From positions 1 through 64,000 of the forward strand of contig CACKZH010000003.1 of the NCBI GenBank assembly GCA_902604575.1: a stretch of DNA of 64,000 nucleotides, written 5' to 3'. The DNA is from an uncultured Pelagibacteraceae bacterium. Lineage in GTDB: Bacteria; Pseudomonadota; Alphaproteobacteria; Pelagibacterales; Pelagibacteraceae. The number at the start of each line of letters is the position of its first letter. Position 1 is the first letter of the stretch. The notes under the pieces are model-generated. The model was not told the origin of the DNA. It made no database searches and saw only the letters and a list, made by a program, of their open reading frames with translations. Positions 35,355 to 57,741 of the stretch are shown one piece after another. Position numbers and translations under genes: made by a program.

Positions 35355-36974
35355 TTACATATTTCCATATCTTGGACCACCACTACCCTCTGGAGTAACC
35401 CAAGTTATATTTTGAGAAGGTTCTTTAATATCACAAGTTTTACAATGAATACAATTTTGAGAATTGATCACAAATTTATTTACATCATTTTCTTTTTGAA
35501 CTTCATACACACCTGCGGGACAATATCTTTGAGCAGGTTCATCAAATTTTTCTAAAGTATAATTTATTGGTAAATCAGGATCTTTAAGTTTAAGATGAAC
35601 TGGTTGATTATCTGCATGATTGGTTCCTGTTAAATACACTGAACTTGTTTTGTCAAAAGTTATAACATTATCATATTTTGGATAATCTATTTTTGGCATT
35701 TGATTTGCAGGTTTTAATGTTTCATGATCAGCATGTTTATGTTTAAGTGTAAAAGGAAGTTTTCCTCTAAATAAAATTTGATCGATACCTGTGAAAATTA
35801 TCCCTAAAATTAATCCCCAACTAAAACTAGGTTTCACGTTCCGAGCTTCATAAAGCTCTTTATATAACCAGCTATTTTTAAATTTATCTTCATAAATAGA
35901 TAAATCTTTGTTTTCTTTTAAGTGATCATTAATAGTTTCAGCTGCAATAATTCCACTTTTCATTGCAGTATGTGAACCTTTGATTTTCGGCATATTCAAA
36001 GTTCCAGCATCACAGCCAACCAACAAAGCTCCGGGCATAAACATTTTTGGCAAACTTTGAAATCCACCTTCAATTAAAGCCCTTGCACCGTAAGAAATTC
36101 TTTTTCCACCTTCTATAATTTTTTTTATTGCTGGATGTGTTTTAAACCTCTGAAATTCATCATAAGGTGATAAATGTGGATTTTTGTAATCTAGACCAAT
36201 TACATAGCCCAGAAAAACTTGTTTATTTTCTGCATGATACATAAAACTACCACCATATGTATTGTTATCTAATGGCCATCCAGCTGTATGCATAACTAAG
36301 CCTTCTTCGTGATTTTTATCCTCTATTTCCCATATTTCTTTAAAACCAATTCCATATTGTTGAGGATCTTTACCTTTATTTAATTCAAATTTTTCAATCA
36401 ATTGTTTTCCTAAATGACCTCTACACCCTTCGGCAAAAACAGTTACTTTACCTAAAAGCTCAATACCTGGTTCAAAACTATCTTTTTTATTACCATCTTT
36501 ATCTATACCCATATCTTGAGTTGCAACACCTTTAACAGATCCATCTTCGTTATATAAAATTTCACTTGCTGGAAATCCTGGAAAAATCTCTACACCTAGC
36601 TTCTCAGCTTGTTCTGCAAGCCATCTACACAGATTTGCTAAACTGATAATATAATTTTTATGATTTTGTTGCACCGCAGGTAGTAGCCAGGTTGGCCAAC
36701 TTAAAGATTTGGTTTTTCCTAAAAATAAAAATTTTTCTTTAGTTACTTTTGTTTTGATTGGAGAATTTAATTCTCTCCAATTTGGTAGTAATTCATCTAG
36801 AGCACGCGTTTCAAATACATTTCCACTTAAAATATGAGCTCCAATCTCTGATGCTTTTTCTAATAAACAAACATTTAGATTTGGATCTAATTGTTTTAAC
36901 TTTATTGCAGTTGATAATCCTGATGGTCCTCCACCAATGATTACAACATCATATTTCATTGATTCTCTAGACAT
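35355..36974 (-). CDS. etfD: electron transfer flavoprotein-ubiquinone oxidoreductase
   Basis: This 539-residue protein has an N-terminal FAD motif (VVIIGGGPSGLSTAIKL), ubiquinone-binding and membrane-anchoring central regions, and a C-terminal 4Fe-4S site with Cys in RYCPAGVYEV and QNCIHCKTCDIKEPSQNI, ending PRYGNM. It passes electrons from ETF to the quinone pool. It lies 23 bases downstream of etfA and so belongs with the DMGDH-like/etfBA unit, giving a full electron path from methylamine oxidation to respiration. Confidence 0.95.
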   Translation of the reverse strand: MSRESMKYDVVIIGGGPSGLSTAIKLKQLDPNLNVCLLEKASEIGAHILSGNVFETRALDELLPNWRELNSPIKTKVTKEKFLFLGKTKSLSWPTWLLPAVQQNHKNYIISLANLCRWLAEQAEKLGVEIFPGFPASEILYNEDGSVKGVATQDMGIDKDGNKKDSFEPGIELLGKVTVFAEGCRGHLGKQLIEKFELNKGKDPQQYGIGFKEIWEIEDKNHEEGLVMHTAGWPLDNNTYGGSFMYHAENKQVFLGYVIGLDYKNPHLSPYDEFQRFKTHPAIKKIIEGGKRISYGARALIEGGFQSLPKMFMPGALLVGCDAGTLNMPKIKGSHTAMKSGIIAAETINDHLKENKDLSIYEDKFKNSWLYKELYEARNVKPSFSWGLILGIIFTGIDQILFRGKLPFTLKHKHADHETLKPANQMPKIDYPKYDNVITFDKTSSVYLTGTNHADNQPVHLKLKDPDLPINYTLEKFDEPAQRYCPAGVYEVQKENDVNKFVINSQNCIHCKTCDIKEPSQNITWVTPEGSGGPRYGNM

Positions 36975-36997
36975 ACTCTAGTTTTTAACTGTAAGGA

Positions 36998-37951
36998 TTA
37001 TTTTTGTATAGTGTTTAATTTGTTCAGCTCTTCCATAAACTGAGGCAGTGCCTCAAATAAATCAGCTTCAAGTCCATAATCTGCAACACTGAAAATTGGA
37101 GCTTCACCATCTTTATTAATTGCAACTATAACTTTACTCTCCTTCATTCCTGCTAAATGTTGAATAGCACCTGAAATTCCAACAGCGATATATAAATCTG
37201 GTACTACCACTTTTCCTGTTTGGCCTACTTGATGATCATTACTTATGTATCCAGCATCTACTGCTGCTCTTGATGCTCCAATTGCTGCACCTAGTTTGTC
37301 AGCAATTTCTGTAATTAATTTAAAATTGTCCCCACTTTGCATTCCTCTGCCACCTGATACAACAATTCTTGCTGTTCCAAGTTCAGGTCGATCAGATTTA
37401 ATTTCTTCTCTTTTTATAAATTTTGTATTTGAAAACTCTTCACTAGCATCCACTTTTTCAATTGGGGCTGATCCACCTGTACTCTCACATGGATCGAAAG
37501 AAGTGGGTCTGATTGTAACGCACTTTTTAGCATCATTACTCTTAATGGTTGCAAAAGCGTTACCGGCATAAATTGGTCTTAAAAAAGTATCTGGTGATAT
37601 TACTTTAATGATGTCACTTACTTGCGATGTGTCAAGATGAGCAGCAATTCGTGGCATTAAATTTTTTCCAAATGTATTTGCCGAACAAACAATGTGAGAA
37701 TAATTTTCTGCAAGTTTAACAATCACTGGAGCAAAATTTTCTGCTGTGAAGTTTTCATAGTGAGCTCCTTCTACACTCAATACCTTTTTAACTACTGGAA
37801 GTTCAGATAATTGTTTTGCAGCATCTGCAGAGTTTTGACCAATAATTACAGCATGTAAATCTGAATCTATTTGAGATGCTGCTGTAGCTGCATTAAGAGT
37901 AAATGGTCTTAACTCTTTATTATTATGTTCTGCTATAAGTAAGACTGCCAT
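36998..37951 (-). CDS. etfA: electron transfer flavoprotein alpha subunit
   Basis: This 317-residue ETF-alpha has the C-terminal FAD domain with [31 protein letters not shown] and [23 protein letters not shown]. It forms the ETF heterodimer with EtfB, encoded upstream with a one-base overlap. In this position it would accept electrons from the dimethylglycine dehydrogenase-like enzyme at 38700 and hand them to ETF-QO. Confidence 0.96.
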
Positions 37952-38700
37952 TAAATTACCTTCGCTTCATTTTTTAACTTTTGAACTAATTCAGCAACAT
38001 TTGCTACTTTTATACCTGCTTTTCTTTTTGGAGGTTCCTCTACTTTTGTTTGTTCTAATCTTGGTGATACATCTACACCTAAATCAGAAGCAGCAATTTC
38101 CTCGATAGGTTTTTTCTTAGCCTTCATTATATTTGGTAGTGATGCATATCTTGGTTCATTCAGCCTAAGATCACAAGTCACAATAGCTGGAATATTTATT
38201 TCAATTGTTTCAAGACCTTCGTCTATTTCTCTAGTTACTTCTAATTTATTATCTTTTACATCGATCTTTGAGGCAAATGTTGCTTGTGGCCAATTTAATA
38301 AAGCACTCAACATTTGACCTGTTTGATTACAATCATCATCAATTGCTTGTTTGCCCATAAATACTAAATCTGGTTTTTCTTTATCTACTATTTTTTGCAA
38401 AATTTTTGAAACAGCGAGTGGTTCTAAAATTCCATCGACTTTCACATGAATACCTCTGTCCGCACCAACTGCTAAAGCTTTTCTAACAGTTTCTTGAGCT
38501 TTTTCTTCACCGACAGTTACAGCTACTACTTCTGTAGCTTTGCCTGCCTCTTTAATTTTTACAGCCTCCTCTATTGCATTATCATCAGGGGGGTTGGTTG
38601 ACATTTTAACGTTGTCAGTAACTACACCCGTTCCGTCTTCTTTAACTCTTATTTGAACGTTGTAATCAATAACCCTTTTTACAGCTACTAAAATTTTCAT
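37951..38700 (-). CDS. etfB: electron transfer flavoprotein beta subunit
   Basis: This 249-residue ETF-beta has the AMP-binding family motifs: an N-terminal [14 protein letters not shown], the central [23 protein letters not shown] (about 114) and the C-terminal [17 protein letters not shown] recognition loop that docks partner dehydrogenases. The start overlaps the stop of the DMGDH-like gene by one base, strong evidence that that enzyme is its physiological partner. Confidence 0.96.
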
Positions 38701-41132
38701 TAAGCTCTCAATAAATTATTTTCTGAATCGTATGGACTCTCATCTAAGACAGTAGCGTCGTATATTTCACCCAATATATCAACTTGTAATTTGTCGCCCA
38801 CATTTGAACAATCTGGCTTAACCATTGCTAGAGCTATTGATTTATCTAATCTAAATCCAAATTCACCTCCGGTTGCTCTTCCAACAACTTTTCCATCTTT
38901 AAAAATTGGGTTATTTCCAAGTACATCTGCATCTTTAGTATTGTGAACCTCTAAAGTGACCAATTTATTATCAAAACCTTTTTCTCTCCATTTATTAAGT
39001 GCTTCTAACCCAATAAAGTTTCCTTTATTTGGGTGAACAAATCTATCAAGACCAGATTCATATGGCGAGTATTCAATTGATAATTCTGTACCAACTAGCT
39101 TGTAAGATTTTTCAACTCTTAAACTATTCATTGCTCTAATTCCAAAAGGTTTAATTCCTAAATCTTTTCCCGCTTCCATTAATTTATCAAAAATATGGTT
39201 TTGATATTCAATTGGATGATGTAATTCCCAACCAAGCTCACCAACAAAGTTTACTCTCATTGCATTTACTGGAGCGTATCCAACATTTACATTTTTTGCA
39301 GTTAGCCATTTAAAATTTTCATTTGAAAAATCATCTGTTGAAACCTTTTGCATTAACTCTCTAGCTTTAGGTCCTGCTACTACCAGAACTCCTGTACTAT
39401 TAGTTAGATCTTCAAAAATTACTGATCCATCATCTGGCATCCATTTTTGTATCCAGTCATGATCTAACCTTAAATTTGCTCCAGCAGAAACTAAATAGTA
39501 ACTATTCTCTGCTTCTTTCATTATTGTAAATTCTGAATGCACCCCACCTTTAGTATTTAAAGCGTGACACAAATTTATCCTTCCAATTTTTTTTGGAAGT
39601 TTGTTTGCAACTAAATAATCTAAAAATTCCTCTGCTTTAGGCCCTTTAATTCTACATTTTGCAAATGCAGTCATATCTAAAAGACCCACGTTTTCTTTTA
39701 CATTTTGACATTCTTTTTTAATAGCATCAAACCATTTCGATCTTCTGAATGACCAATCATCTTTTTGTTCCATTCCATCTGTTGCAAAGAAATTAGGTCT
39801 TTCCCATCCAAACTTCTGACCAAACACAGCACCTAAATTTTTCATTCGCTCATAACAAGGAGCTGTTCTTAGAGGTCTTGCTGCTGGTCTTTCTTCATCT
39901 GGATAATGGACAATAAATACATGACTGTATGCTTCTTCATTTTTTGCTTTCAAATAAGATTTAGTTGCATAATTACCGTAACGTCTTGGTTCAACACCTA
40001 ACATATCAATTGTAGGTTCACCATCAACAATCCACTCTGCTAATTGCCAGCCTGCACCACCTGCTGCTGTTATTCCAAAACTATGTCCTTCATTAATCCA
40101 AAAATTTTTAAGTCCCCAAGCTGGTCCAACAATTGGATTTCCATCAGGAGTATAACAGATTGCTCCATTATAAACTTTCTTCACTCCAACTTCTCCAAAC
40201 GCGGGTACTCTATGAATTGCTCCTTCAATGTGTGGAGCTAATCTGTCTAAGTCTTCTTGAAATAATTCATATTCAGAATTTTTTGATGGCCCCTCTACAT
40301 AACAAGCTGGTGCACCATCTTCATAAGGGCCTAAAATTAATCCTCCAGCTTCTTCTCTCATATACCATCTGCTATCACTATCTCTTAAGACTCCCATTTC
40401 TGGTAATCCATCTTTTTTTCTTTTTTGAATTGCAGGATGCGGTTCTGTAACAATGTATTGATGTTCAACAGGTATTACTGGAATATCTAATCCTACCATT
40501 TCACCTGTTTGTCTTGCAAAATTTCCAGAACAAGAAATAACATGTTCGCACTCTATTGATCCCTTATCTGTTTCCACAATCCATCCATCTTTAGTTTGCC
40601 TCATTGATAGGACAGTTGTGTTTCTATAAATTTCTGCACCTCTATTTCTTGCACCTGTTGCTAATGCTTGTGTTAAATCTGCTGGTTGAATATATCCATC
40701 TTCAGGGTGTTGTATTGCACCAACTAAATCATCTGTATGACACAATGGCCAAATTTCTTTTACTTGTTCTGGTTTCAAAAATTTAACATCTACTCCAATA
40801 GTTCGAGCAACACCTGCGTATTGATGGTATTCATCCATTCTATCTTTTGTACTTGCTAAACGAATATTTGAAACAACACTAAAGCCAACATTTTTTCCAG
40901 TTTCTTCCTCTAATGTTTTATAAAGATTAACTGCATATTTATGAAGTTGTCCAACTGAATAACTCATATTAAATAAAGGCAACAAACCTGCGGCATGCCA
41001 AGTAGATCCTGATGTTAATTCTTTTCTTTCAACTAGAACAACATCAGACCAGCCCTTTTTTGCTAAATGATAAAGGGCGCTTACCCCTACAACTCCTCCA
41101 CCAACTACTACAACTTTAGTTTTTGTTTTCAT
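38700..41132 (-). CDS. dimethylglycine/sarcosine dehydrogenase-family flavoprotein, paralog 1
   Basis: This 810-residue cytosolic protein has an N-terminal DAO-type FAD domain ([20 protein letters not shown]) with GSTWHAAG, whose His is the covalent FAD site in DMGDH, then FAO-M and C-terminal GcvT-like folate domains (from about residue 440; [11 protein letters not shown]). Family enzymes remove a methyl group from dimethylglycine or sarcosine, giving 5,10-methylene-THF and feeding electrons to ETF. It heads the etfBA-etfD unit. The precise substrate versus paralog 2 (48732) cannot be told by eye. Confidence 0.88.
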
Positions 41133-46467: not shown

Positions 46468-46874
46468 TTTTTTATCTCCTCTATTATTTTTGGTGCCCAA
46501 TTTTTTGCATCCTGAGTTGTTACATGAAAATCAAAATTCTTAGGATTAACAAACATTTGATTTGTGTCTTCAAATCTTCCTTCTTTAATTGTATCGACCC
46601 ACACCCTAAAATCTGCTGGAAACAAGCTTCTTGCTTCAGGGGTTGGTGCAATGAAATCAGCAATTACATAATGACCTTCTGCTTTTACTTTTAAAGCTGC
46701 TTCAGCCATTCTTTTTGCTTGTCTTACCCTTCCTTCTTCTGAAAAATCCCAATCATTTGCAGCCCTTCTTACTTCGTCAGCATTTAATCTTTTTGCATTT
46801 AAGTGTGGTGCCATTTCATTTGCTAGAGTTGTTTTACCAGCTCCAGGCAAACCCATTACTAAAATAATTTTCAT
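46464..46874 (-). CDS. APS-kinase-like P-loop kinase (136 aa)
   Basis: This 136-residue protein has Walker A GLPGAGKTTLA (residues 8-18), NADEVRRAANDW and VIADFIAPTPEAR, which parallel the adenylyl-sulfate kinase loops, but it is shorter than standard APS kinase (about 200). No ATP sulfurylase or sulfate reduction genes are in view, and SAR11 are known for lacking assimilatory sulfate reduction, so another phosphoacceptor is likely. It overlaps dddP by one base and the nucleotidyltransferase by 4. Confidence 0.75.
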   Translation of the reverse strand: MKIILVMGLPGAGKTTLANEMAPHLNAKRLNADEVRRAANDWDFSEEGRVRQAKRMAEAALKVKAEGHYVIADFIAPTPEARSLFPADFRVWVDTIKEGRFEDTNQMFVNPKNFDFHVTTQDAKNWAPKIIEEIKK

Positions 46875-48109
46875 TAAATATCTTCTAACGGATGATGGGA
46901 CATTAATTCAAGTCCATTTTCACCAACAAGATACTGTTGTTCAAGTTTTACACCCTCTTTACCACCAACTTTACCAATATAACTCTCAAGTGTAATTGTC
47001 ATGTTCTTCTCAAAAGTTCCACCCTCTTCTCCACCATCGGTTGGATATCTTATTTGAGGCCACTCATCACACAAACCAATTCCATGAACCATACATGAAT
47101 ACCTATTTCCAAAATATTCATCAGGCAAAACCCAAGATTTTTTAACAAATTCTTTAAAACTCATTCCTGGTTTAATTAATCTAAAATTTTGATCAATTTG
47201 ATTTTTAGCCATTGAATATAGTTTTTTTTGCTCATCATTAAATTTATGTCCAACTACAAAGGCTCTTGATATGTCAGCACAGTATCCATAGGGACCGACC
47301 ATATCTGTATCAAAAGCAACAATTTCTCCCTGTTGCATAACTTTATTACTACTCTCTTGCATCCATGGATTTGTTCTTTCACCAGAAGATAAAATCCTAC
47401 ACTCAATCCATTCACCTCCATTTTCAATATTTGTTTTATGTAAAATTGACCACAATTCATCTTCTGTCATTCCTGGTTTAAGATCTGATCTCATTTTAGA
47501 CACACCTTTTTCTGCAACTTCTATTGCTGCTTTCATACAAATTAATTCATTAGATGATTTTATTACCCTTGCTTGTTCTAAAATCAATTTTGCATCCACG
47601 ACTTCAATACCTTCTTTATTTAAAGCTGCAACCGCAGGACCATTTAGAACATCGATTGCAATTTTTTTTGATTTAAAATAATTCTTTGATAAATCTTTAA
47701 CTTCATTTATCCATTTTGATAATTGTAGATTTGCTTGGTCTCCATTACTAAAATAATCCCATGTGATCGCAGGTCTTATTTCGTCAATTAGATTTAAATG
47801 CTTTGATAATATTTCACAATTAAAATACTCATAAAGGATTGTTGGTCCATTGACTGGAACAAAACAATATCTTGTTAAATTATGCATATTGTAGACACTC
47901 ATGTTAACAGTATCTAATGCATAACGAACATTAACTGGATCAAATAAAATACAGGCCTCTAAATTGTTTTTTACTAATTCTTTTCTAACCCTATCTAAAC
48001 GATAAGATCTTAACTTATCAAAATCAATCTCATCTTCTTTTAATCTTTTTTTAGTAATAAAATTTTGTCTTGGTTTTATCTCGGGGGCTATTTTTCTACT
48101 AAACCTCAT
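46874..48109 (-). CDS. dddP: DddP-family DMSP lyase (M24 peptidase fold)
   Basis: This 411-residue protein has the M24 creatinase fold with every metal and catalytic residue of characterised DddP enzymes: Asp267 and Asp269 (FDTDMVG), Asp279 (CADISR), His342 and Asp348 (HGIGLCDEWP), Glu375 and Glu390. GGEWIECRILSSGERTNPW and YALDTVNM are also DddP-like rather than Xaa-Pro peptidase-like. DddP cleaves DMSP to DMS and acrylate. It sits in the betaine operon between a methyltransferase and a kinase. A creatinase-like hydrolase acting on another methylated compound is the main alternative. Confidence 0.82.
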   Translation of the reverse strand: MRFSRKIAPEIKPRQNFITKKRLKEDEIDFDKLRSYRLDRVRKELVKNNLEACILFDPVNVRYALDTVNMSVYNMHNLTRYCFVPVNGPTILYEYFNCEILSKHLNLIDEIRPAITWDYFSNGDQANLQLSKWINEVKDLSKNYFKSKKIAIDVLNGPAVAALNKEGIEVVDAKLILEQARVIKSSNELICMKAAIEVAEKGVSKMRSDLKPGMTEDELWSILHKTNIENGGEWIECRILSSGERTNPWMQESSNKVMQQGEIVAFDTDMVGPYGYCADISRAFVVGHKFNDEQKKLYSMAKNQIDQNFRLIKPGMSFKEFVKKSWVLPDEYFGNRYSCMVHGIGLCDEWPQIRYPTDGGEEGGTFEKNMTITLESYIGKVGGKEGVKLEQQYLVGENGLELMSHHPLEDI

Positions 48110-48732
48110 AATACCCTATACAACCCTAACCATGCATTAACATCTTTACTTGCAATATAATCAGATTTAAAAAATTCTACTTCTTCCCACTTCTTGCTGT
48201 TTTTTAGTATATCAATTTTTTTATCAAAACCATACTCCTCATGAATGCCTTCATTAATTGTGAAACAAATTAATCCACCTGGTTTTGTTATTCTTATAAA
48301 CTCATCTAATGCATTTGGCTTTACATGCCCAAAAGTAAATGTTCCAACACACATAACTCCACCATAAAAGTTATCCTCAACTTCTATTGGTTTATTTAAA
48401 TCAACCTTTACTAATTTTTGATAAAGATCTTTTGGTACAGTATCTAATAAAGTTTGAGATAAATCGGCTCCATGAAAATTTTTAAAACTATATTTTTTAA
48501 GTTCCAATCCAACCAAACCTGTTCCACATCCAGCATCAAAAATTAAAGTATCTTTATTTTTCTCATATTTGTTAAACGTTTCTGCGGTTTCTTTAGGTCC
48601 TGTATAGTTCCAATCAACCATGTCTTTATTGTATTTATCTTTGTCTCCCCACTCATCGTAGTATTTCATAACTTCATCTGTAGTTTTAAGCTTATAAATT
48701 GGAATTTTGTTTCCTACGTTTTTTTGAGCCAT
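48106..48732 (-). CDS. class I SAM-dependent methyltransferase
   Basis: This 208-residue methyltransferase has motif I IFDAGCGTGLVG (about 66), the post-I acidic end GADLSQ, and KPGGLICFTINEG later. The N-terminal YYDEWGDKDKYNKDMVDWNY resembles the METTL27/WBSCR27 group. The acceptor is unknown. It overlaps dddP by 4 bases and the second DMGDH-like gene by one base. SAM regeneration by the upstream BhmT would support it, an inference from context. Confidence 0.85.
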   Translation of the reverse strand: MAQKNVGNKIPIYKLKTTDEVMKYYDEWGDKDKYNKDMVDWNYTGPKETAETFNKYEKNKDTLIFDAGCGTGLVGLELKKYSFKNFHGADLSQTLLDTVPKDLYQKLVKVDLNKPIEVEDNFYGGVMCVGTFTFGHVKPNALDEFIRITKPGGLICFTINEGIHEEYGFDKKIDILKNSKKWEEVEFFKSDYIASKDVNAWLGLYRVL

Positions 48733-51137
48733 TAGCTTCTCATTTTTTGACCGCTTGGATCATAAAGTGGTTCTTTAATTATTGAACAATTAAATAAATC
48801 TCCATTAATCTCTACTTGAATTTTATTTTCAGATTTAATGTTTTTGTGATCAACGAAAGTAAACGCTACACTTTTGTTTACAAAATGAGCAAACCCACCT
48901 GAAGTTACATAGCCAATACTTTGATCTCCATTCAAGACGGCTTCATTATTTGTTACATCAATTTCATTTGTTTCAACAATTAATGGTATAAGTTTATTTG
49001 AAGAATTTTCCATTTGTGCACTTTCTTTACCAATAAACTCTTTGTCCCAATTTATAAAAGCATCTAAGCCTGTCTCTTTTGCTGTAAAATCTGGTCTATA
49101 ATCTAAAGTCCAGGCTCCCCAATTTTTCTCTAACCTCATTGACATTAATGCTCTTCCACCAAATGGTTTAATATTAAACTCTTTTCCAGCTTCCAGTAAT
49201 TCTTCATAAAGTTTTAATTGGTAGTGAGGTGCTACATAAATTTCATAACCAAGTTCACCTGTAAATGAAATTCTATTTATTATTGCTGGAACTCCCCCAA
49301 CAAACATTCTTCTAGAATCTCTAAATTTAAATTTTTCATTTGAAACATCTTCTCTTACAATTTTTTCTAAAACTTTCCTTGAGTTAGGTCCCGCAATAGA
49401 TAATCCATGATACTCGTCAGATCTATTAGAATAACTTAAATTAAATTTATCTAAATGACTCTCAAACCAACGTCTATGCATTTCTTGAACAGCTCCAGAA
49501 CCAAACACCATGAATTCATTTTCATCTAAACAAGCCACAGTTAAATCACCACATAACTTTCCTCTATACGACAACATTGGGGATAAAGATATTCTTCCTG
49601 GCTTTGGAAGTCTTCCAGCCATTATATGATCTAAAAATTTTCTAGCATCAGGACCTTTGAATTCATGTTTTGAAAAGTTGGCAACTTCGATTAAACCAAC
49701 ATTTTCTCTTACATTAATAACTTCTTTTGAAACATAGTCATGTGATCTTGATCTTTTAATAGTAGGCTCTTCATGAGCATCTTTTTTATTATTTGCAAAC
49801 CACAAAACATTTTCTAATCCAAAACTATCTCCCATCACAGCACCTTGATTTACAAAACGATCATACAGCGCAGTAGTTTTTTGTTTTCTTCCTTTTGGTA
49901 AAGTTTCGTTTGGAAATGTCATAATAAACCTTCGCTCATAATTTTCTGAAGATTTTATTGTTCCATATTGAGGTGATGCATAATCTCCAAATCTTGCAAC
50001 ATCCATTGCCCAAACATCAATAGAGGGTTCTCCATCAATAATCCATTCAGCAATGCATTTTCCAACACCACCACCTTGGCAAAATCCAGCCATAACACCA
50101 ACAGCAACCCAATAATTTTTCATACCTGGAACAGGTCCAATCAAAGGACTTCCATCTGGACCAAAAGTAAACGGACCATTAACTATATTTTTTATACCTG
50201 CACGCTCTAGTGCTGGCATTCTTTCAAAACCAATTGCCAATCTATCTTCAATATTATCTAACTTTGGCTCAAGTAACTCATGACCAAAATTCATCGGTGT
50301 ACCTTCTACTTTCCAAGGTGTTGATTTTGGCTCATAGGTTCCAAGCAACATTCCTTTACCTTCTTGTCTAAAGTAAATATTTCCCTCAAAATCTGTTCCA
50401 ATTGGCAATCTTTGGTCACCCATTGCCTCAATTTCTGGAATAGGTTCGGTGATTAAATAATGGTGCTCCATTGGTTGTACAGGAAGATTTAATCCGGCTA
50501 ATTGTCCAACTTCTCTTGCCCAAAGTCCTCCTGCATTAATAACAATTTCTGCATTAATGTTTCCTTTGTCTGTAAACACTTCCCATGAACCATCTTTTTT
50601 TTGTTTCGTGTCTTTAACAACTGTGTGAGTGTAATATTTTCCACCATGAACTTTTGCCGCTTTTGCAAAAGCGTACGTAACTCCTGATGGATCAACTTCA
50701 CCATCAATAGGGTCCCATAAAGCTAACAAGTATCGAGATGGATCAATTAAAGGATGTTTCTTTTTCACTTCCTCTAGAGAAATAAATTCTTGATCAAGTC
50801 CCATGTATCTTGCTTTTGATCTTTCTCTTTTTAAATAATCAGCCCAGACTTCATTTGATGCCAAGTAAAATCCTCCACTTGGTTTAAATCCAACAGAATG
50901 ACCAGACTCTTTTTCAATCTCTTTATATAAACCTATTGTATAAGCCATCATCCTTGAAATATTTGGATCAGATGAAATTACATGAACATTTCCTGCTGCA
51001 TGCCAAGATGAACCAGAAGTAAGCTCATTTCTTTCAAGCAAGATACAATCCTTTAATCCAAATTTAGATAAATGATAAAGAATAGAGCACCCTACTACAC
51101 CACCTCCTATAATTACTACCTTCGCATGCTTTTCCAT
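48732..51137 (-). CDS. dimethylglycine/sarcosine dehydrogenase-family flavoprotein, paralog 2
   Basis: This 801-residue paralog of the enzyme at 38700 has the same order: FAD domain (VIIGGGVVGCSILYHLSKFG), covalent-FAD site GSSWHAAGN, FAO-M, then a GcvT-type folate domain (FTGELGYEIYVAPHY). It is encoded directly after bhmT (one-base overlap), which makes dimethylglycine from betaine, so dimethylglycine is the most likely substrate of this copy and sarcosine of the other. Which copy uses which substrate needs assays. Confidence 0.88.
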   Translation of the reverse strand: MEKHAKVVIIGGGVVGCSILYHLSKFGLKDCILLERNELTSGSSWHAAGNVHVISSDPNISRMMAYTIGLYKEIEKESGHSVGFKPSGGFYLASNEVWADYLKRERSKARYMGLDQEFISLEEVKKKHPLIDPSRYLLALWDPIDGEVDPSGVTYAFAKAAKVHGGKYYTHTVVKDTKQKKDGSWEVFTDKGNINAEIVINAGGLWAREVGQLAGLNLPVQPMEHHYLITEPIPEIEAMGDQRLPIGTDFEGNIYFRQEGKGMLLGTYEPKSTPWKVEGTPMNFGHELLEPKLDNIEDRLAIGFERMPALERAGIKNIVNGPFTFGPDGSPLIGPVPGMKNYWVAVGVMAGFCQGGGVGKCIAEWIIDGEPSIDVWAMDVARFGDYASPQYGTIKSSENYERRFIMTFPNETLPKGRKQKTTALYDRFVNQGAVMGDSFGLENVLWFANNKKDAHEEPTIKRSRSHDYVSKEVINVRENVGLIEVANFSKHEFKGPDARKFLDHIMAGRLPKPGRISLSPMLSYRGKLCGDLTVACLDENEFMVFGSGAVQEMHRRWFESHLDKFNLSYSNRSDEYHGLSIAGPNSRKVLEKIVREDVSNEKFKFRDSRRMFVGGVPAIINRISFTGELGYEIYVAPHYQLKLYEELLEAGKEFNIKPFGGRALMSMRLEKNWGAWTLDYRPDFTAKETGLDAFINWDKEFIGKESAQMENSSNKLIPLIVETNEIDVTNNEAVLNGDQSIGYVTSGGFAHFVNKSVAFTFVDHKNIKSENKIQVEINGDLFNCSIIKEPLYDPSGQKMRS

Positions 51138-52188: not shown

Positions 52189-53376
52189 TCATTTTGTTAA
52201 GTTGGTTGCAACCCACTTATGAAACATCAAAGTAGGAGTATCCATTACAGGTGAAAAATTTCCACCATTGTAAGCTGGAGAACTTCGCCCGTTTTGCATT
52301 CCTTCTATTGCAGTTACATCCTCGTTCATAACTTCTCGCCAAAATGCAAAATTTTTTTTTCTTATATCCTTAAACTCATCACTAGAGGCACTTTCATCTC
52401 CAACATAATATAGTTCAAAATGTTCTTTTGTTTGATTGTTAGAAATTGGCTCTAACCAAAATGCATAAAAATGATCAATATGTATTCCTAACATTACATT
52501 CGGATATAATGATACATATTCAGATTTTTCAGAAAGTTCAGTTGGCCAGTTGGGAAAGCATTTAAATTTAATATTTCCATCGAACTGTTGTGAATATTTA
52601 TTACTGCCTTGTCCTGAAAAATTAAAATTCTCATCCTCAATATGATAGTGATCTGAAATATTTGAAACTTTATTTAGCTCTGGGTGTATCCAAGGCAAAT
52701 GATAGCTTTCACAATAATTCTCAATTGCAAATTTCCAATTACTATTCACTGTCATATTAAAATATCCGTTATCAGATGAATGTCTTATTAATTTTTGATC
52801 TTTTTTAGTAATAAACTTAGACCATCTGTCTTCTAGGGGTTTAATAAAATCTTCAAATGCATTGGCATTAGAATTTATATTGATAAAAATTAAATCCATC
52901 CAAATATTTGATTTAATTTCTTTTAAATTACTATTGTTTTTATCAAATCCCTCAACCTCATGTTTGCCTAGTCCTCCTATATGCGGGGTAACAGTTAATT
53001 TACCATTAAAATCATATGACCAAGAATGATAAGGGCATCTTATCACATTTTTTAATTTACATTCTTCATCAACTAATTTGAAACCTCTATGACTACACAC
53101 ATTATGAAAAACTTTTACTTCGTTATCTTTGTTTCTAACTATTAAAATTGGTATCCCTAAAAGATTAAAAGGTTTTGCATCGCCTGGATTTGGTATGGAG
53201 CTTGCAACCCCAATCATTGTCCAATTATTTTTAAATATTTTTTCTTTCTCAAACTCTAAATAATCATCATTTAAATAACATTCATTGGGTAACCCATGGG
53301 CTTTATCTATAGGATTTTTAACAACTTCTATTTTTTGGGGATCTAAGATTTTTGATAATTTTTTATTTAAATTCAT
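52189..53376 (-). CDS. Rieske-type oxygenase alpha subunit, quaternary-amine group (GbcA/CntA-like)
   Basis: This 395-residue protein has the Rieske 2Fe-2S site CSHRG (Cys94, His96) and CPYHSW (Cys114, His117), then the mononuclear iron site ENYCESYHLPWIH (His226, His231). The residue linking the two sites is Glu223, where most ring hydroxylases have Asp; Glu is typical of CntA/GbcA enzymes acting on carnitine or betaine. It could thus demethylate betaine or open a related onium compound. No reductase partner is encoded nearby. AAGGAGG lies 3 bases before the ATG. Confidence 0.83.
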   Translation of the reverse strand: MNLNKKLSKILDPQKIEVVKNPIDKAHGLPNECYLNDDYLEFEKEKIFKNNWTMIGVASSIPNPGDAKPFNLLGIPILIVRNKDNEVKVFHNVCSHRGFKLVDEECKLKNVIRCPYHSWSYDFNGKLTVTPHIGGLGKHEVEGFDKNNSNLKEIKSNIWMDLIFININSNANAFEDFIKPLEDRWSKFITKKDQKLIRHSSDNGYFNMTVNSNWKFAIENYCESYHLPWIHPELNKVSNISDHYHIEDENFNFSGQGSNKYSQQFDGNIKFKCFPNWPTELSEKSEYVSLYPNVMLGIHIDHFYAFWLEPISNNQTKEHFELYYVGDESASSDEFKDIRKKNFAFWREVMNEDVTAIEGMQNGRSSPAYNGGNFSPVMDTPTLMFHKWVATNLTK

Positions 53377-53643: not shown

Positions 53644-54654
53644 ATGAAAATTAAAAGAATACTAATTTCATTAGCTGTTATACTTGGACTAACTTCTTTC
53701 GGAAGTGTGGCCAATGCTGCTTGTGGAAAAATAACAATTGCTAATATGAACTGGGCTTCTGCGAACTTTATGGCAGAAGTAGATAAAGTAATATTAGAAA
53801 AAGGATACGGATGTTCTGTAGAATTGGTTCCTGGTTCAACAATGCCAACTTTTACTTCAATGCAAGAAAAAGGTGAGCCAGATATCGCGCCTGAGTTTTG
53901 GGCAAATGCTGCTAAATTAGAATTAGAAGCAGCAGTTGCTGAGGGAAAATTACATTCAATTAACAAAGCTCCAATCACTGGTTTAGGTGAAGGTTGGTGG
54001 GTATTACCTGCAACTTTAGAAAAGCATCCAGAATTAACAACTGCAGATGCAATTTTAAAAAGACCTGACCTATTTCCACATCCAGAAGATCCTTCAAAAG
54101 GTGGATTTCACATTTGTCCTCCAGGATGGAACTGTGAATTAAGTAACAGAAATCATTTTAGAGCTTGGGAAATGGAAGCTAAAGGGTGGATGATAGTTGA
54201 AACAGGTTCTGCTGCAGGATTAGATGGTTCTATAGCAAAAGCTGCTGAAAGAGGTGAAAACTGGTTTGGTTACTATTGGTCTCCAACAGCAATTATTGGA
54301 AAATATAATATGCAAGCTGTAGATATGGGTGAATATGCAGGAAAAGATAATTGGGACAACTGTTTGTCAAAGCCAGAGCAAGAATGTGCGAATCCATTGA
54401 AATCTTCATGGGTAAAATCTGAAGTTTACTCAGTTGCTACTGATAATTACAAAAAAACAGCTGGAAAAGAGGGAATGAGTTATTTAGAAAAAAGAACTTA
54501 CCCGGGTCCAGTAATGAATGGAATGTTAGTTTGGATGGGAGAAAACCAAGCTGAAGGTGCAGATGCTGCAATTGAATTCTTAAAAACACAAGAAGACGTG
54601 TGGACTAAGTGGGTTACAAAATCAGCTGCCAAAAAAATTAAAGCAGGTCTTTAA
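53644..54654 (+). CDS. glycine betaine/onium ABC transporter substrate-binding protein (OpuAC/ProX family)
   Basis: This 336-residue periplasmic protein has a signal peptide ending SVANA. The mature chain has the OpuAC fold with IANMNWASANFM near its N-terminus, GEGWWVLPA and WFGYYWSPTAI, whose Trp/Tyr residues are candidates for the aromatic cage that holds trimethylammonium or dimethylsulfonium groups. Cargo may be glycine betaine, DMSP or similar. It is followed by a GNRA hairpin and the permease gene. No ATP-binding subunit gene lies nearby. Confidence 0.88.
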   Translation: MKIKRILISLAVILGLTSFGSVANAACGKITIANMNWASANFMAEVDKVILEKGYGCSVELVPGSTMPTFTSMQEKGEPDIAPEFWANAAKLELEAAVAEGKLHSINKAPITGLGEGWWVLPATLEKHPELTTADAILKRPDLFPHPEDPSKGGFHICPPGWNCELSNRNHFRAWEMEAKGWMIVETGSAAGLDGSIAKAAERGENWFGYYWSPTAIIGKYNMQAVDMGEYAGKDNWDNCLSKPEQECANPLKSSWVKSEVYSVATDNYKKTAGKEGMSYLEKRTYPGPVMNGMLVWMGENQAEGADAAIEFLKTQEDVWTKWVTKSAAKKIKAGL

Positions 54655-54713: not shown

Positions 54714-55601
54714 ATGGAATTCTTTAGCAAAATCCCTGTAATGGATAGAACAGCTTTAAGGGAGTTAAAGAAAAGTATTGATTTTAGTTTTAAAGAGTTT
54801 TCAAGAGCTTATGGTGATGCAATAGAAAGTTTTTTTGACCCTCTCCTATATTTTTTAATCTGGTTAGAAAAATTATTAGTAAGCAGTCCATGGCCTATAG
54901 TCATAGGGGTTTTTGCATTGCTTGCATGGATTGGTTCTAGAAGTGTTAAACTTGTAATTGGAACAATAGCATGCTTCCTTGTAATTGGATACTTTGGAAT
55001 GTGGAAAAATTGTATGGCTACAGTAGCCATAATTTCTGTTTCTACTTTGGTGTGTATAGTGGTTGGAATTCCAATTGGTGTTTTAATGTCAAAATCAGCA
55101 AGAGCAGAAAAAACAATTTTACCTGTTTTAGATATGATGCAAACTATTCCTAGTTTCGTTTATCTTATACCTATAATTATGCTCCTAGGTATTGGTAAAG
55201 TTCCAGGTTTATTAGCTGTGTGTATTTATGCTTTACCTCCTATTGTAAGATTGACAAATCTTGGAATAAGGGAGGTCGATAAAGAGACTTTAGAGGCAAG
55301 TGAAGCCTTTGGTGCAACAGCAATGCAAAAGTTAAAATCTGTTCAAATTCCTCTTTCCCTTCCAACAATTTTTGCAGGAATTAACCAGACAATAATGATG
55401 GCTTTGGCTATGGTGGTTATTGCCTCTATGATTGGAGTTAGAGGGCTAGGAGTGCCAATTTTACAAGCCATTTCTAACCAATATTTAGCTCTTGGAATGA
55501 TGAATGGTTTGGCAATAGTAGCGCTGGCAATTATCTTTGATAGGGTTACTCAGCAGTATGGACAACGAATTCAAAAGCACAGAGGCCAGCTGAAAAAGTA
55601 A
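54714..55601 (+). CDS. glycine betaine ABC transporter permease (ProW/OpuAB family)
   Basis: This 295-residue protein has an N-terminal cytosolic stretch, then about six membrane helices. The permease EAA loop EASEAFGATAMQKLKSVQIPLSLP (about 197) and GVRGLGVPILQAISNQ (about 241) are clearly ProW-like. The segment MQTIPSFVYLIPIIMLLGIGKVPG matches the conserved substrate-channel region. It needs a ProV-type ATPase encoded outside this window. The MetF-like gene follows after 60 bases. Confidence 0.9.
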   Translation: MEFFSKIPVMDRTALRELKKSIDFSFKEFSRAYGDAIESFFDPLLYFLIWLEKLLVSSPWPIVIGVFALLAWIGSRSVKLVIGTIACFLVIGYFGMWKNCMATVAIISVSTLVCIVVGIPIGVLMSKSARAEKTILPVLDMMQTIPSFVYLIPIIMLLGIGKVPGLLAVCIYALPPIVRLTNLGIREVDKETLEASEAFGATAMQKLKSVQIPLSLPTIFAGINQTIMMALAMVVIASMIGVRGLGVPILQAISNQYLALGMMNGLAIVALAIIFDRVTQQYGQRIQKHRGQLKK

Positions 55602-55661: not shown

Positions 55662-56390
55662 ATGAATTTTTCATTAGAAATAGGACCTAAAACTGACATC
55701 GAAACAGTCCCTGCTGTAAGCGATGTTTATATTACAATGCTGCCTGGTGGTGACTATAAAGAAACAGCTGAAAAAGCTATTGAGCTAGTAAATAAAGGTT
55801 TTAATCCTGTGCCTCACTTTCCAGCGAGATCGATGCAGGATGAAAAGGAACTTAAAGATTATGTTTCAAGATGTAAGGATGGTGGAGTTAAGCAAGCTTT
55901 AATTATAGGCGGCGGAAGAGAACCTGCGGGTAAATTTGACAGTTCTTTTCAACTTTTAGAAACAGGTTATTTTGAAAAAATGAAAATAGGAATTGCTGGA
56001 CACCCGGAGGGGAGTCCTGATATATCCGACTCAGAATTAGAAAAAGCTATGATAGATAAAAAGCCTTACGCTGATTATATAGTAACTCAATGGTTGCTTA
56101 ATCCTCAGCCTATTATAGATTTTATTTCTAAGCAAAGCGTACCAGTGCATGTGGGAATTACTGGGCCATTAAAAATATCTAGCTTAATTAAATTTGCTAA
56201 TATTGTTGGGGCAAAAAATTCCTTAAACTTTCTTAAATCTAATTTTACTAAGGCATTAGATTTATTGAAACCTAAAGACCCTAATGATTTAATTGGGAAA
56301 GTTAAATCGCACACTGATAACTTCCACATTTATACATTCGGCGGCTTGAAGGAAACTAACAAGTGGTTGAAGGAGAATAGTTATGTCTAA
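55662..56390 (+). CDS. MetF-like methylenetetrahydrofolate reductase family protein (short form)
   Basis: This 242-residue protein is shorter than standard MetF (about 290) but keeps its order of motifs: VPHFPARSM (about 46), ALIIGGGREPAG (about 79), GIAGHPEGSPD (about 110) and DYIVTQWLLNPQPIIDFI (about 133), followed by VPVHVGITGP. MetF links 5-methyl-THF and 5,10-methylene-THF with FAD. Its 8-base overlap with the DmdA-like gene suggests it oxidises the methyl-THF that enzyme would release, running opposite to biosynthetic MetF (inference). Confidence 0.8.
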   Translation: MNFSLEIGPKTDIETVPAVSDVYITMLPGGDYKETAEKAIELVNKGFNPVPHFPARSMQDEKELKDYVSRCKDGGVKQALIIGGGREPAGKFDSSFQLLETGYFEKMKIGIAGHPEGSPDISDSELEKAMIDKKPYADYIVTQWLLNPQPIIDFISKQSVPVHVGITGPLKISSLIKFANIVGAKNSLNFLKSNFTKALDLLKPKDPNDLIGKVKSHTDNFHIYTFGGLKETNKWLKENSYV

Positions 56391-57741
56391 TGAATTTGAC
56401 TATACTAAATTAAAACATGTTACTTCTGTTGATCAATCAGATAGAGAAGTGCCATACAATTTAAGACAAAGTGGGCCAACAAAAGTTGAAATGTTAATTT
56501 CAACAAGGGTAAGAAAGTCACCTTATTGGCATTTATCAATGCAGGCAGGTTGTTGGAGAGCAACTGTATACAATCGTATTTATCATCCAAGAGGTTACGT
56601 AAAACCTGAAGATGGTGGAGCTATGGTTGAATACGATGCCATCGTAAACCATGTAACAATGTGGAACGTTGCTGTTGAAAGACAAATAAGAGTTAAAGGT
56701 CCTGATGCAGAAAAATTTACTGACTACGTTATAACTAGAGATGCAACAAAAATTTCTCCTATGAGAGCAAGATATGTAATCTTGTGTAATGCTTACGGAG
56801 GAGTTTTAAATGATCCAATTCTTTTAAGAATTTCAGAGGATGAATTTTGGTTTTCTTTATCAGACTCTGATATTGGAATGTATTTACAAGGTGTTAATGC
56901 TGATGGAAGATTCAATTGTACTATAGAAGAAATTGATGTCAGTCCTGTTCAAATACAAGGACCTAAATCAAAAGGATTAATGAAAGATCTTTGTGGCGAT
57001 CAAGTTGATTTTGATAATATGCCTTTCTACGGCTTAGCAGCTGCTAAAATTGGAGGAAGAGATGTTGTTATTTCTCAGTCTGGTTTCTCAGGTGAAGCTG
57101 GTTATGAGATTTATTTAAAAAATTCAACTTTGTATGCTGAAGATATGTGGAATGCTGTGCTTGCAGCTGGGAAAAAACATAGCTTGATGGTTATTGCTCC
57201 TGCTCACCATAGAAGAATTCAAGCAGGTATTCTTTCTTGGGGACAAGACATGGATCAACAACACAATCCATTCCAATGTAATTTAGGTTATCAAGTTTCT
57301 TTGTCTGGAAAAGGTGAGTGGAACAAAAAAGCTGATTATGTTGGTAAAGCCGCCCTTGAGAAAATGAAAGCAGATATCAAAGCAGGTCAAAAACCATATA
57401 AACTTCAATTAGTTGGTATGGAACTAGGTGGTAAACCTATTGATAATTATGCGCCTGACTTTTGGTTGGTATCACCTGAAGGTGGTAAAGATCCTGTTGG
57501 ATTTCTTACTTCACCTTGGTGGCATCCTGAAAAGAAAACAAATATTGCTATGGGATATGTTCCTTTCGATGGAACGTTAAATGCAAATGGTTTTCCAAAA
57601 GGAAAAGTGGGAACCAAATATAAAGTTCATCTACCTGAACAATATTCAGAAACTCCAGGAACACCTGTAGATGCTGTTGTGGTAGATATTCCATTCAAAG
57701 AGTCTTTCAACGCAAATACAAGAGAAGTTGTAAAAGGCTAA
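56383..57741 (+). CDS. DmdA-like GcvT-family THF-dependent demethylase/methyltransferase (452 aa)
   Basis: This GcvT-fold protein shares many landmarks with SAR11 DMSP demethylase DmdA: VTMWNVAVERQIRVKG (about 88), VITRDATKI, GGVLNDPILLRI, FWFSLSDSDIG, VQIQGPKS and NPFQCNL. It differs by being about 80 residues longer than the characterised 369-residue DmdA and by SGFSGEAGYEIY where, as I recall it, that DmdA has SGWSKQGGYEVY. Coupling to a MetF-like gene and a betaine/onium importer suggests THF-dependent demethylation of DMSP, glycine betaine or a relative. Pipelines may call it DmdA or aminomethyltransferase; I rate the family high and the substrate open. Confidence 0.8.
   Translation: MSNEFDYTKLKHVTSVDQSDREVPYNLRQSGPTKVEMLISTRVRKSPYWHLSMQAGCWRATVYNRIYHPRGYVKPEDGGAMVEYDAIVNHVTMWNVAVERQIRVKGPDAEKFTDYVITRDATKISPMRARYVILCNAYGGVLNDPILLRISEDEFWFSLSDSDIGMYLQGVNADGRFNCTIEEIDVSPVQIQGPKSKGLMKDLCGDQVDFDNMPFYGLAAAKIGGRDVVISQSGFSGEAGYEIYLKNSTLYAEDMWNAVLAAGKKHSLMVIAPAHHRRIQAGILSWGQDMDQQHNPFQCNLGYQVSLSGKGEWNKKADYVGKAALEKMKADIKAGQKPYKLQLVGMELGGKPIDNYAPDFWLVSPEGGKDPVGFLTSPWWHPEKKTNIAMGYVPFDGTLNANGFPKGKVGTKYKVHLPEQYSETPGTPVDAVVVDIPFKESFNANTREVVKG

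Follow-up and report, generated by a model that had tools for sequence, protein, structure and literature searches.

We analyzed a window of 64,000 nucleotides from an uncultured Pelagibacteraceae bacterium (contig CACKZH010000003.1), whose closest named relatives are all Pelagibacteraceae. Two open reading frames (ORFs) on its forward strand form an overlapping pair. The first (55662-56390, +; 242 codons) encodes a short MetF-like protein, apparently of the S6MTHFR type. The second (56383-57741, +; 452 codons) encodes a protein of the GcvT/DmdA superfamily, here labeled DMDAL, which we characterized by ORF call, family searches, a tree, and a table of alignment columns. The ORF coordinates give the two genes eight shared bases (56383-56390, +). 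DMDAL has a GCV_T domain (Pfam, 135 bits), and its closest solved relative is the SAR11 DmdA (3TFH, 1e-41). At 452 residues, it is 83 residues longer than the DmdA of HTCC1062 (369 residues). The alignment reveals an N-terminal extension that is missing in DmdA (residues 16-53; 56428-56541, +). This extension is aromatic-rich and near-invariant across the clade, with the pattern V-x-x-x-x-R-x-V-P-x-N-L-R-Q-S-G ... L-I-S-T-R ... W-H-L-S. The column table places the motif S233-G-F235-S-G-E-x-G-Y-E242-x-Y244 at 57079-57114 (+), with SGF at residues 233-235 corresponding to SGW at residues 195-197 of DmdA. A preliminary description of this DNA had already reported the GcvT fold with DmdA landmarks, a length excess over SAR11 DmdA of about 80 residues, the SGF/SGW change at the active site, and the 8-base overlap with a short MetF; all four hold. 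An AlphaFold model of DMDAL, built from 27 near-identical SAR11 rows, had a mean pLDDT of 45 and was left out of fold searches. The window has a single Rfam match, a potC RNA motif (RF01751; 30493-30562, -; 93.8 bits); at the MetF-DMDAL locus, the Rfam search gave no regulatory RNA.

The gene pair had been noticed before. The DMDAL of HTCC1062 is 92% identical to the window protein and also overlaps MetF, at about 1.20 Mb. The genome taken as HTCC1062 (G026) encodes a DmdA that is 100% identical to 3TFH over the 276 residues searched. From the gene order in PMC3160333 (beside metF and ~36 kb before a Tdm-like gene taken as SAR11_1303), we assigned the pair to SAR11_1264 and SAR11_1265, of which the window MetF and DMDAL are the respective orthologs. 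Sun et al. recorded the pair in 2011, together with its metF neighbor and its closeness to dmdA, and speculated that SAR11_1265 is an MMPA demethylase (PMC3160333); that proposal made no use of the gene neighborhoods outside SAR11, which favor glycine betaine. In sulfur-limitation data, SAR11_1264 and SAR11_1265 shift together, down to 0.1-0.2-fold in some conditions, and bhmT rises strongly (PMC5069961). The literature searched assigned no function to SAR11_1265 and described no THF-dependent glycine betaine demethylase.

We find that the pair is broadly conserved within SAR11. DMDAL orthologs occur in 112 of 197 Pelagibacteraceae genomes, and the short MetF lies directly upstream at every Pelagibacteraceae locus with enough upstream sequence (95/95). 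Thus, the pair is not a chance arrangement. By extrapolation, 78 of these 95 loci have the same 8-base overlap. Two genomes of the Pelagibacteraceae genus g9 (G009 and G022) carry neither DMDAL nor the short MetF and have a canonical MetF instead (E about 1e-88).

In the window, the pair follows genes for an OpuAC-type substrate-binding protein (53644-54654, +) and, by domain and family match, a ProW/ChoW-type ABC permease (54714-55601, +); no ABC ATPase gene adjoins the two in the window. The preliminary description had the importer preceding the pair, which is correct for the window, but these genes are facultative neighbors. Among 84 Pelagibacteraceae loci, genes within 5.5 kb of DMDAL include OpuAC and ProW at 41, a BhmT-like gene at 37, and a Rieske gene at 59. 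The importer is also missing at the HTCC1062 locus. The functional unit is therefore the MetF-DMDAL pair rather than the importer, whose weight as evidence of the substrate is lowered because it is kept at only 41 of the 84 loci. The best solved relative of the binding protein is DmpX (7YLE, 2.5e-62), a DMSP binder (PMC10030565). DMDAL might then be a second DMSP demethylase, passing the methyl group of DMSP or an analog to THF and serving a DmpX-like importer. With such a binding protein next door, DmdA as the closest characterized relative of DMDAL, and DMSP and glycine betaine being analogs, this is a live alternative in SAR11, even though the importer is missing at half of the loci. DMDAL and DmdA also co-occur widely in SAR11, but both are common there, so that their co-occurrence does not discriminate between substrates; genomes outside SAR11 do.

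To place DMDAL, we used a maximum-likelihood tree of 65 sequences, with 25 DMDAL rows and 12 DmdA-clade rows. DMDAL forms one clade (support 99/98) that is separate from the DmdA clade (100/100), and beside it stands a clade holding DmdA and a further paralog group. Together, DMDAL, DmdA, and the paralogs make up a methyl-to-THF superclade that is split with full support from the domains of GcvT, Tdm, DMGDH, and SoxA. DMDAL scores 233 bits against the DmdA equivalog NF009133, for which the cutoff is 410 and the control, HTCC1062 DmdA, scores 637.5. It also falls below the curated cutoffs for GcvT (144.7 versus 300 and 128.6 versus 235.9 bits), LigM (35 versus 580), DesA (42 versus 800), and Tdm (149 versus 1100). 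Tdm, the TMAO demethylase, shares a GcvT-type domain with DMDAL; however, it is a fusion of ~780 aa that the tree places on the side of GcvT, whereas DMDAL is a single GcvT-type protein with no fusion. The further paralogs are DmdA-like proteins of ~380 aa that share 45% identity with DmdA in SAR11, keep the Trp of the W197 column, and score 399 bits against the cutoff of 410. Members include a protein of the window genome itself (G000:C37:1206-2345; L002, L241), L187, L191, L265-L268, and a protein on the conjugative Phaeobacter plasmid pP88_b (36899-38041; L210), where the neighboring genes encode OsmC, an enoyl-CoA hydratase, and an acyl-CoA synthetase.

DmdA (SAR11_0246, PDB 3TFH) has in common with DMDAL the GcvT fold, the folate contacts, the N107-D108-P109 motif, and, as we propose for DMDAL, methyl transfer to THF. 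The two differ in that they are about 30-32% identical, fall in separate clades, and have other gene neighbors; DMDAL has both extra N-terminal and extra C-terminal segments. The DmdA folate contacts Y95, S122, E204, and Y206 correspond to Y131, S158, E242, and Y244 of DMDAL and are kept in all 25 rows. The same 25 rows have the N-D of the superclade motif N-D-P where GcvT has D-D at its catalytic site. PMC7487153, from which the roles of the DmdA folate-contact residues are partly taken, also proposes a Trp as a DMSP-specific residue (W171 in the alignment numbering of that paper); we mapped it to W197 by its spacing to the folate residues. In nearly all DMDAL rows, W197-S-K199-Q200 of DmdA is replaced by F-S-G-E (SGWSKQ to SGFSGE). 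The W197 column holds Phe in 24 of 25 DMDAL rows, and Tyr in five and Phe in one of the 12 DmdA-clade rows. Given the Tyr and Phe residues in part of the DmdA clade, the Trp change alone is not decisive against DMSP, and we regard it as suggestive, not conclusive, of another substrate. A position inside the characterized DmdA clade with the DMSP contacts kept had been named beforehand as an outcome that would contradict the interpretation; instead, DMDAL lies outside that clade, and the Trp has become Phe.

The MetF partner, the 242-aa protein, scores 21 bits against the Pfam MTHFR model, which is below the cutoff. Its closest match in the PDB is 7XG9 (5,10-MTHFR; E = 9.6e-32); the next canonical MTHFR is at 6e-4. 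The MetF-like proteins beside DMDAL in one haloarchaeon, one gammaproteobacterium, and one alphaproteobacterium also match 7XG9 far above canonical MetF. From its chain name and PMC12585457, we take 7XG9 to be S6MTHFR. PMC12585457 describes S6MTHFR as oxidizing 5-methyl-THF in tandem with the GcvT-related LigM. The LigM and S6MTHFR of Sphingobium SYK-6 would thus offer a precedent for a GcvT-related THF demethylase working with a MetF homolog as 5-methyl-THF oxidase, although LigM, unlike what we propose for DMDAL, acts on aromatic O-methyl substrates. Judged by closeness, the 242-aa MetF is probably of the oxidative S6MTHFR type, and we propose that it acts as a 5-methyl-THF oxidase. Neither the window genome nor any of the seven further SAR11 genomes of its genus with a match has a second MTHFR-family match; in HTCC1062 and G078, the Pfam MTHFR model missed even the short MetF. 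SAR11 lacks both MetE and MetH (PMC5069961, PMC12478193). 5-Methyl-THF consequently has no known biosynthetic outlet in SAR11, and we strongly infer that it must be oxidized.

The pair could also run in reverse, with MetF making 5-methyl-THF and DMDAL methylating an acceptor, for example to make betaine or methionine. In formal terms, methyl transfer can go either way, and MetF enzymes mostly act as reductases. No result here favors this direction, however, and both the apparently oxidative S6MTHFR type of the MetF and the catabolic genes in the clusters described below (serine dehydratase, DMGDH-type proteins, and formate dehydrogenase) run counter to it. We consider it extremely improbable.

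Other enzymes of methylated amine metabolism are encoded elsewhere in the window. The best match of a dimethylglycine dehydrogenase (DMGDH; 38700-41132, -) is the solved mammalian DMGDH (1.8e-195), and its homologs adjoin DMDAL in several alphaproteobacteria. Downstream of DMGDH are genes for ETF beta, ETF alpha, and ETF-ubiquinone oxidoreductase (ETFQO; 35355-38700, -), the proposed electron outlet for dimethylglycine demethylation. Family and domain matches and the tree identify a second FAD and GcvT fusion of the DMGDH/sarcosine dehydrogenase family (48732-51137, -). A BhmT-like protein (PF02574; 51137-52177, -) scores 100 bits against the curated BHMT cutoff of 338, and a Rieske oxygenase (52189-53376, -) scores 125 bits against the GbcA cutoff of 670. 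Of the BhmT, Rieske, and DMGDH enzymes that the preliminary description placed nearby, the first two score far below the cutoffs for BHMT and GbcA. The BhmT-like protein is a possible parallel route of glycine betaine demethylation to methionine. The Rieske oxygenase, whose gene in Pelagibacteraceae is often located upstream of the pair and is also found in HTCC1062 (L243, 7050-8243), may act on another methylated amine. A 411-aa M24-family protein (46874-48109, -) resembles the DMSP lyase DddP (348 bits versus a cutoff of 600); its gene adjoins those of a small methyltransferase and the DMGDH-like and BhmT-like proteins.

DMDAL extends beyond SAR11, though sparsely. It was detected in 20 of 386 genomes across the class, including three own-genus SAR11 genomes, and in 6 of 398 genomes across the phylum. 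Haloarchaeal megaplasmids also carry DMDAL, at 51-57% identity. In the tree, the haloarchaeal sequences are nested within alphaproteobacterial ones, which suggests transfer.

The genes that surround DMDAL in these organisms are the main evidence for its substrate. Three genomes (G635, G689, and G711), which we take to be gammaproteobacteria because they belong to the phylum yet lie outside the class and have a Pseudomonas-type GbdR, share a cluster of DMDAL, a MetF-like gene (called as an ORF of its own in two of them), formate-THF ligase, GbdR (498-512 bits; cutoff 480), L-serine ammonia-lyase, and a dimethylglycine-oxidase-like protein. Because they belong to the same genus, these three genomes are not independent. 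In alphaproteobacteria, the neighbors of DMDAL are DMGDH, the sarcosine oxidase SoxB/SoxA, or MetF together with formate-THF ligase, and in one family it adjoins DMGDH-EtfB-EtfA-ETFQO. MetF is within 14 kb of DMDAL in eight of nine haloarchaeal islands inspected. Most haloarchaeal islands also encode one or two dimethylglycine-oxidase-like proteins and a threonine/serine dehydratase (IlvA), and several encode SHMT, a BCCT transporter (517 bits, below the curated glycine betaine cutoff of 650), formate-THF ligase (Fhs), FolD, formate dehydrogenase, or folate-synthesis genes. One has an MTTB-family gene. Some of the haloarchaeal islands (L206-L209, L275-L278) are apparently complete for glycine betaine catabolism, and several carry folate-cycle genes of their own (dihydrofolate reductase, folP, pabB, FolD, and Fhs). 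Other contexts were uninformative (L083-L085, L092, L093, and L279); the neighbor scans at L083, L085, L089, and L092 returned mostly unrelated genes beyond a DMGDH at L089.

Outside SAR11, DMDAL shares clusters with genes for the later steps of glycine betaine catabolism and for a regulator of this pathway (GbdR, DMGDH-type proteins, SoxBA, serine dehydratase, and BCCT). As a pathway, these clusters would take up betaine, turn dimethylglycine via sarcosine, glycine, and serine into pyruvate, and oxidize methyl groups in a THF-linked manner. The only step for which the clusters appear to encode no other enzyme is that from glycine betaine to dimethylglycine. Furthermore, 8 of 20 near-complete non-Pelagibacteraceae DMDAL genomes (G302, G261, G424, G451, G339, G635, G689, and G711) have no GbcA above cutoff and no MTTB-family (MtgB) or BHMT-like protein.

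The same genomes bear on the organosulfur substrates. In 9 of the 20, there is no DmdA-like protein other than DMDAL. Combined with a position outside the DmdA clade and with haloarchaeal and GbdR clusters that resemble glycine betaine catabolism, this makes DMSP an unlikely main substrate. The 2011 speculation (PMC3160333), whereby DMDAL would convert MMPA to mercaptopropionate, gains from the relationship to DmdA and the presence of both proteins in SAR11 genomes. Yet DMDAL occurs in these nine genomes on its own, no DMSP gene is listed in the haloarchaeal plasmid islands, and the clusters show no organosulfur link, all of which leaves MMPA with very little probability. Gene context cannot separate close analogs of glycine betaine, and the GbdR, BCCT, and OpuA families handle a number of onium compounds. 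Both points would suit demethylation, by the same chemistry, of another quaternary or tertiary amine such as proline betaine, carnitine, choline, beta-alanine betaine, dimethylglycine, or sarcosine. Against this, the clusters already provide for dimethylglycine and sarcosine through DMGDH/dimethylglycine-oxidase-like proteins and SoxBA, and genes for carnitine or proline betaine did not turn up in them; we rate another amine about as doubtful as DMSP. Homarine was considered as a substrate and dropped for lack of support.

Glycine betaine thus emerges as the likeliest substrate, narrowing an earlier list that comprised betaine, DMSP, and other onium compounds. We conclude, with reasonable confidence from comparative sequence evidence, that DMDAL is probably a THF-dependent demethylase whose main substrate is glycine betaine and whose product is oxidized by the coupled MetF. 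Points that weigh against glycine betaine include the BhmT-like protein in SAR11, the resemblance of the binding protein in the adjoining importer to a DMSP binder, the below-cutoff score of the BCCT transporter, and the MTTB-family gene of one haloarchaeal island. In the proposed reaction, glycine betaine and THF would yield dimethylglycine and 5-methyl-THF by direct methyl transfer without cobalamin. N5 of THF would attack a methyl of the trimethylammonium group in a cationic pocket, and dimethylglycine would be released. The invariant N-terminal aromatics W49, W58, Y63, Y67, and Y72 might, together with F235, cage this group. The overlapping 242-aa MetF would convert 5-methyl-THF to 5,10-methylene-THF, and FolD, Fhs, and formate dehydrogenase would take the methyl group to CO2, yielding reducing power and ATP. 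Dimethylglycine would pass through DMGDH, with ETF, to sarcosine, glycine, and serine. The core of the preliminary interpretation, a THF-linked demethylase with MetF oxidation, is well supported; its importer link is weaker.

BHMT, GbcAB, and MtgBCD likewise convert glycine betaine to dimethylglycine as a first step (PMC12478193). DMDAL is unrelated to these enzymes and would need no homocysteine, O2, or cobalamin. Anaerobes achieve the same net reaction via cobalamin, with MtgB and a methylcobalamin:THF methyltransferase (PMC12478193). Carried out by one enzyme and without B12, the reaction would resemble that of DmdA.

As an osmolyte, glycine betaine is abundant in the sea. SAR11 oxidizes its methyl groups to CO2 (PMC3160333), and in the current view Bhmt alone demethylates glycine betaine in SAR11 (PMC12478193). 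Such a scheme ties each demethylation to methionine synthesis, and thus methyl oxidation for energy is not readily explained. If our proposal is correct, a THF-linked demethylase with an oxidative MetF explains this oxidation without cobalamin, homocysteine, or O2, and SAR11 would divide the labor between Bhmt for methionine and DMDAL for dissimilation. Although the gene pair has been known since 2011, the function and the B12-free step that we propose are undescribed in the literature searched. The MetF-DMDAL pair is present in most SAR11 genomes examined, and the family extends to other bacteria and to salt-loving archaea. We think it rather likely, if somewhat less so than the enzymatic function itself, that a cobalamin-free, single-enzyme glycine betaine:THF methyltransferase with an oxidative MetF is the dissimilatory route in SAR11, and also the first catabolic step in some Alpha- and Gammaproteobacteria and in haloarchaea, the latter apparently by acquisition from alphaproteobacteria. 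This would provide a function for the long-open SAR11_1265 and a candidate first step for haloarchaeal glycine betaine degradation.
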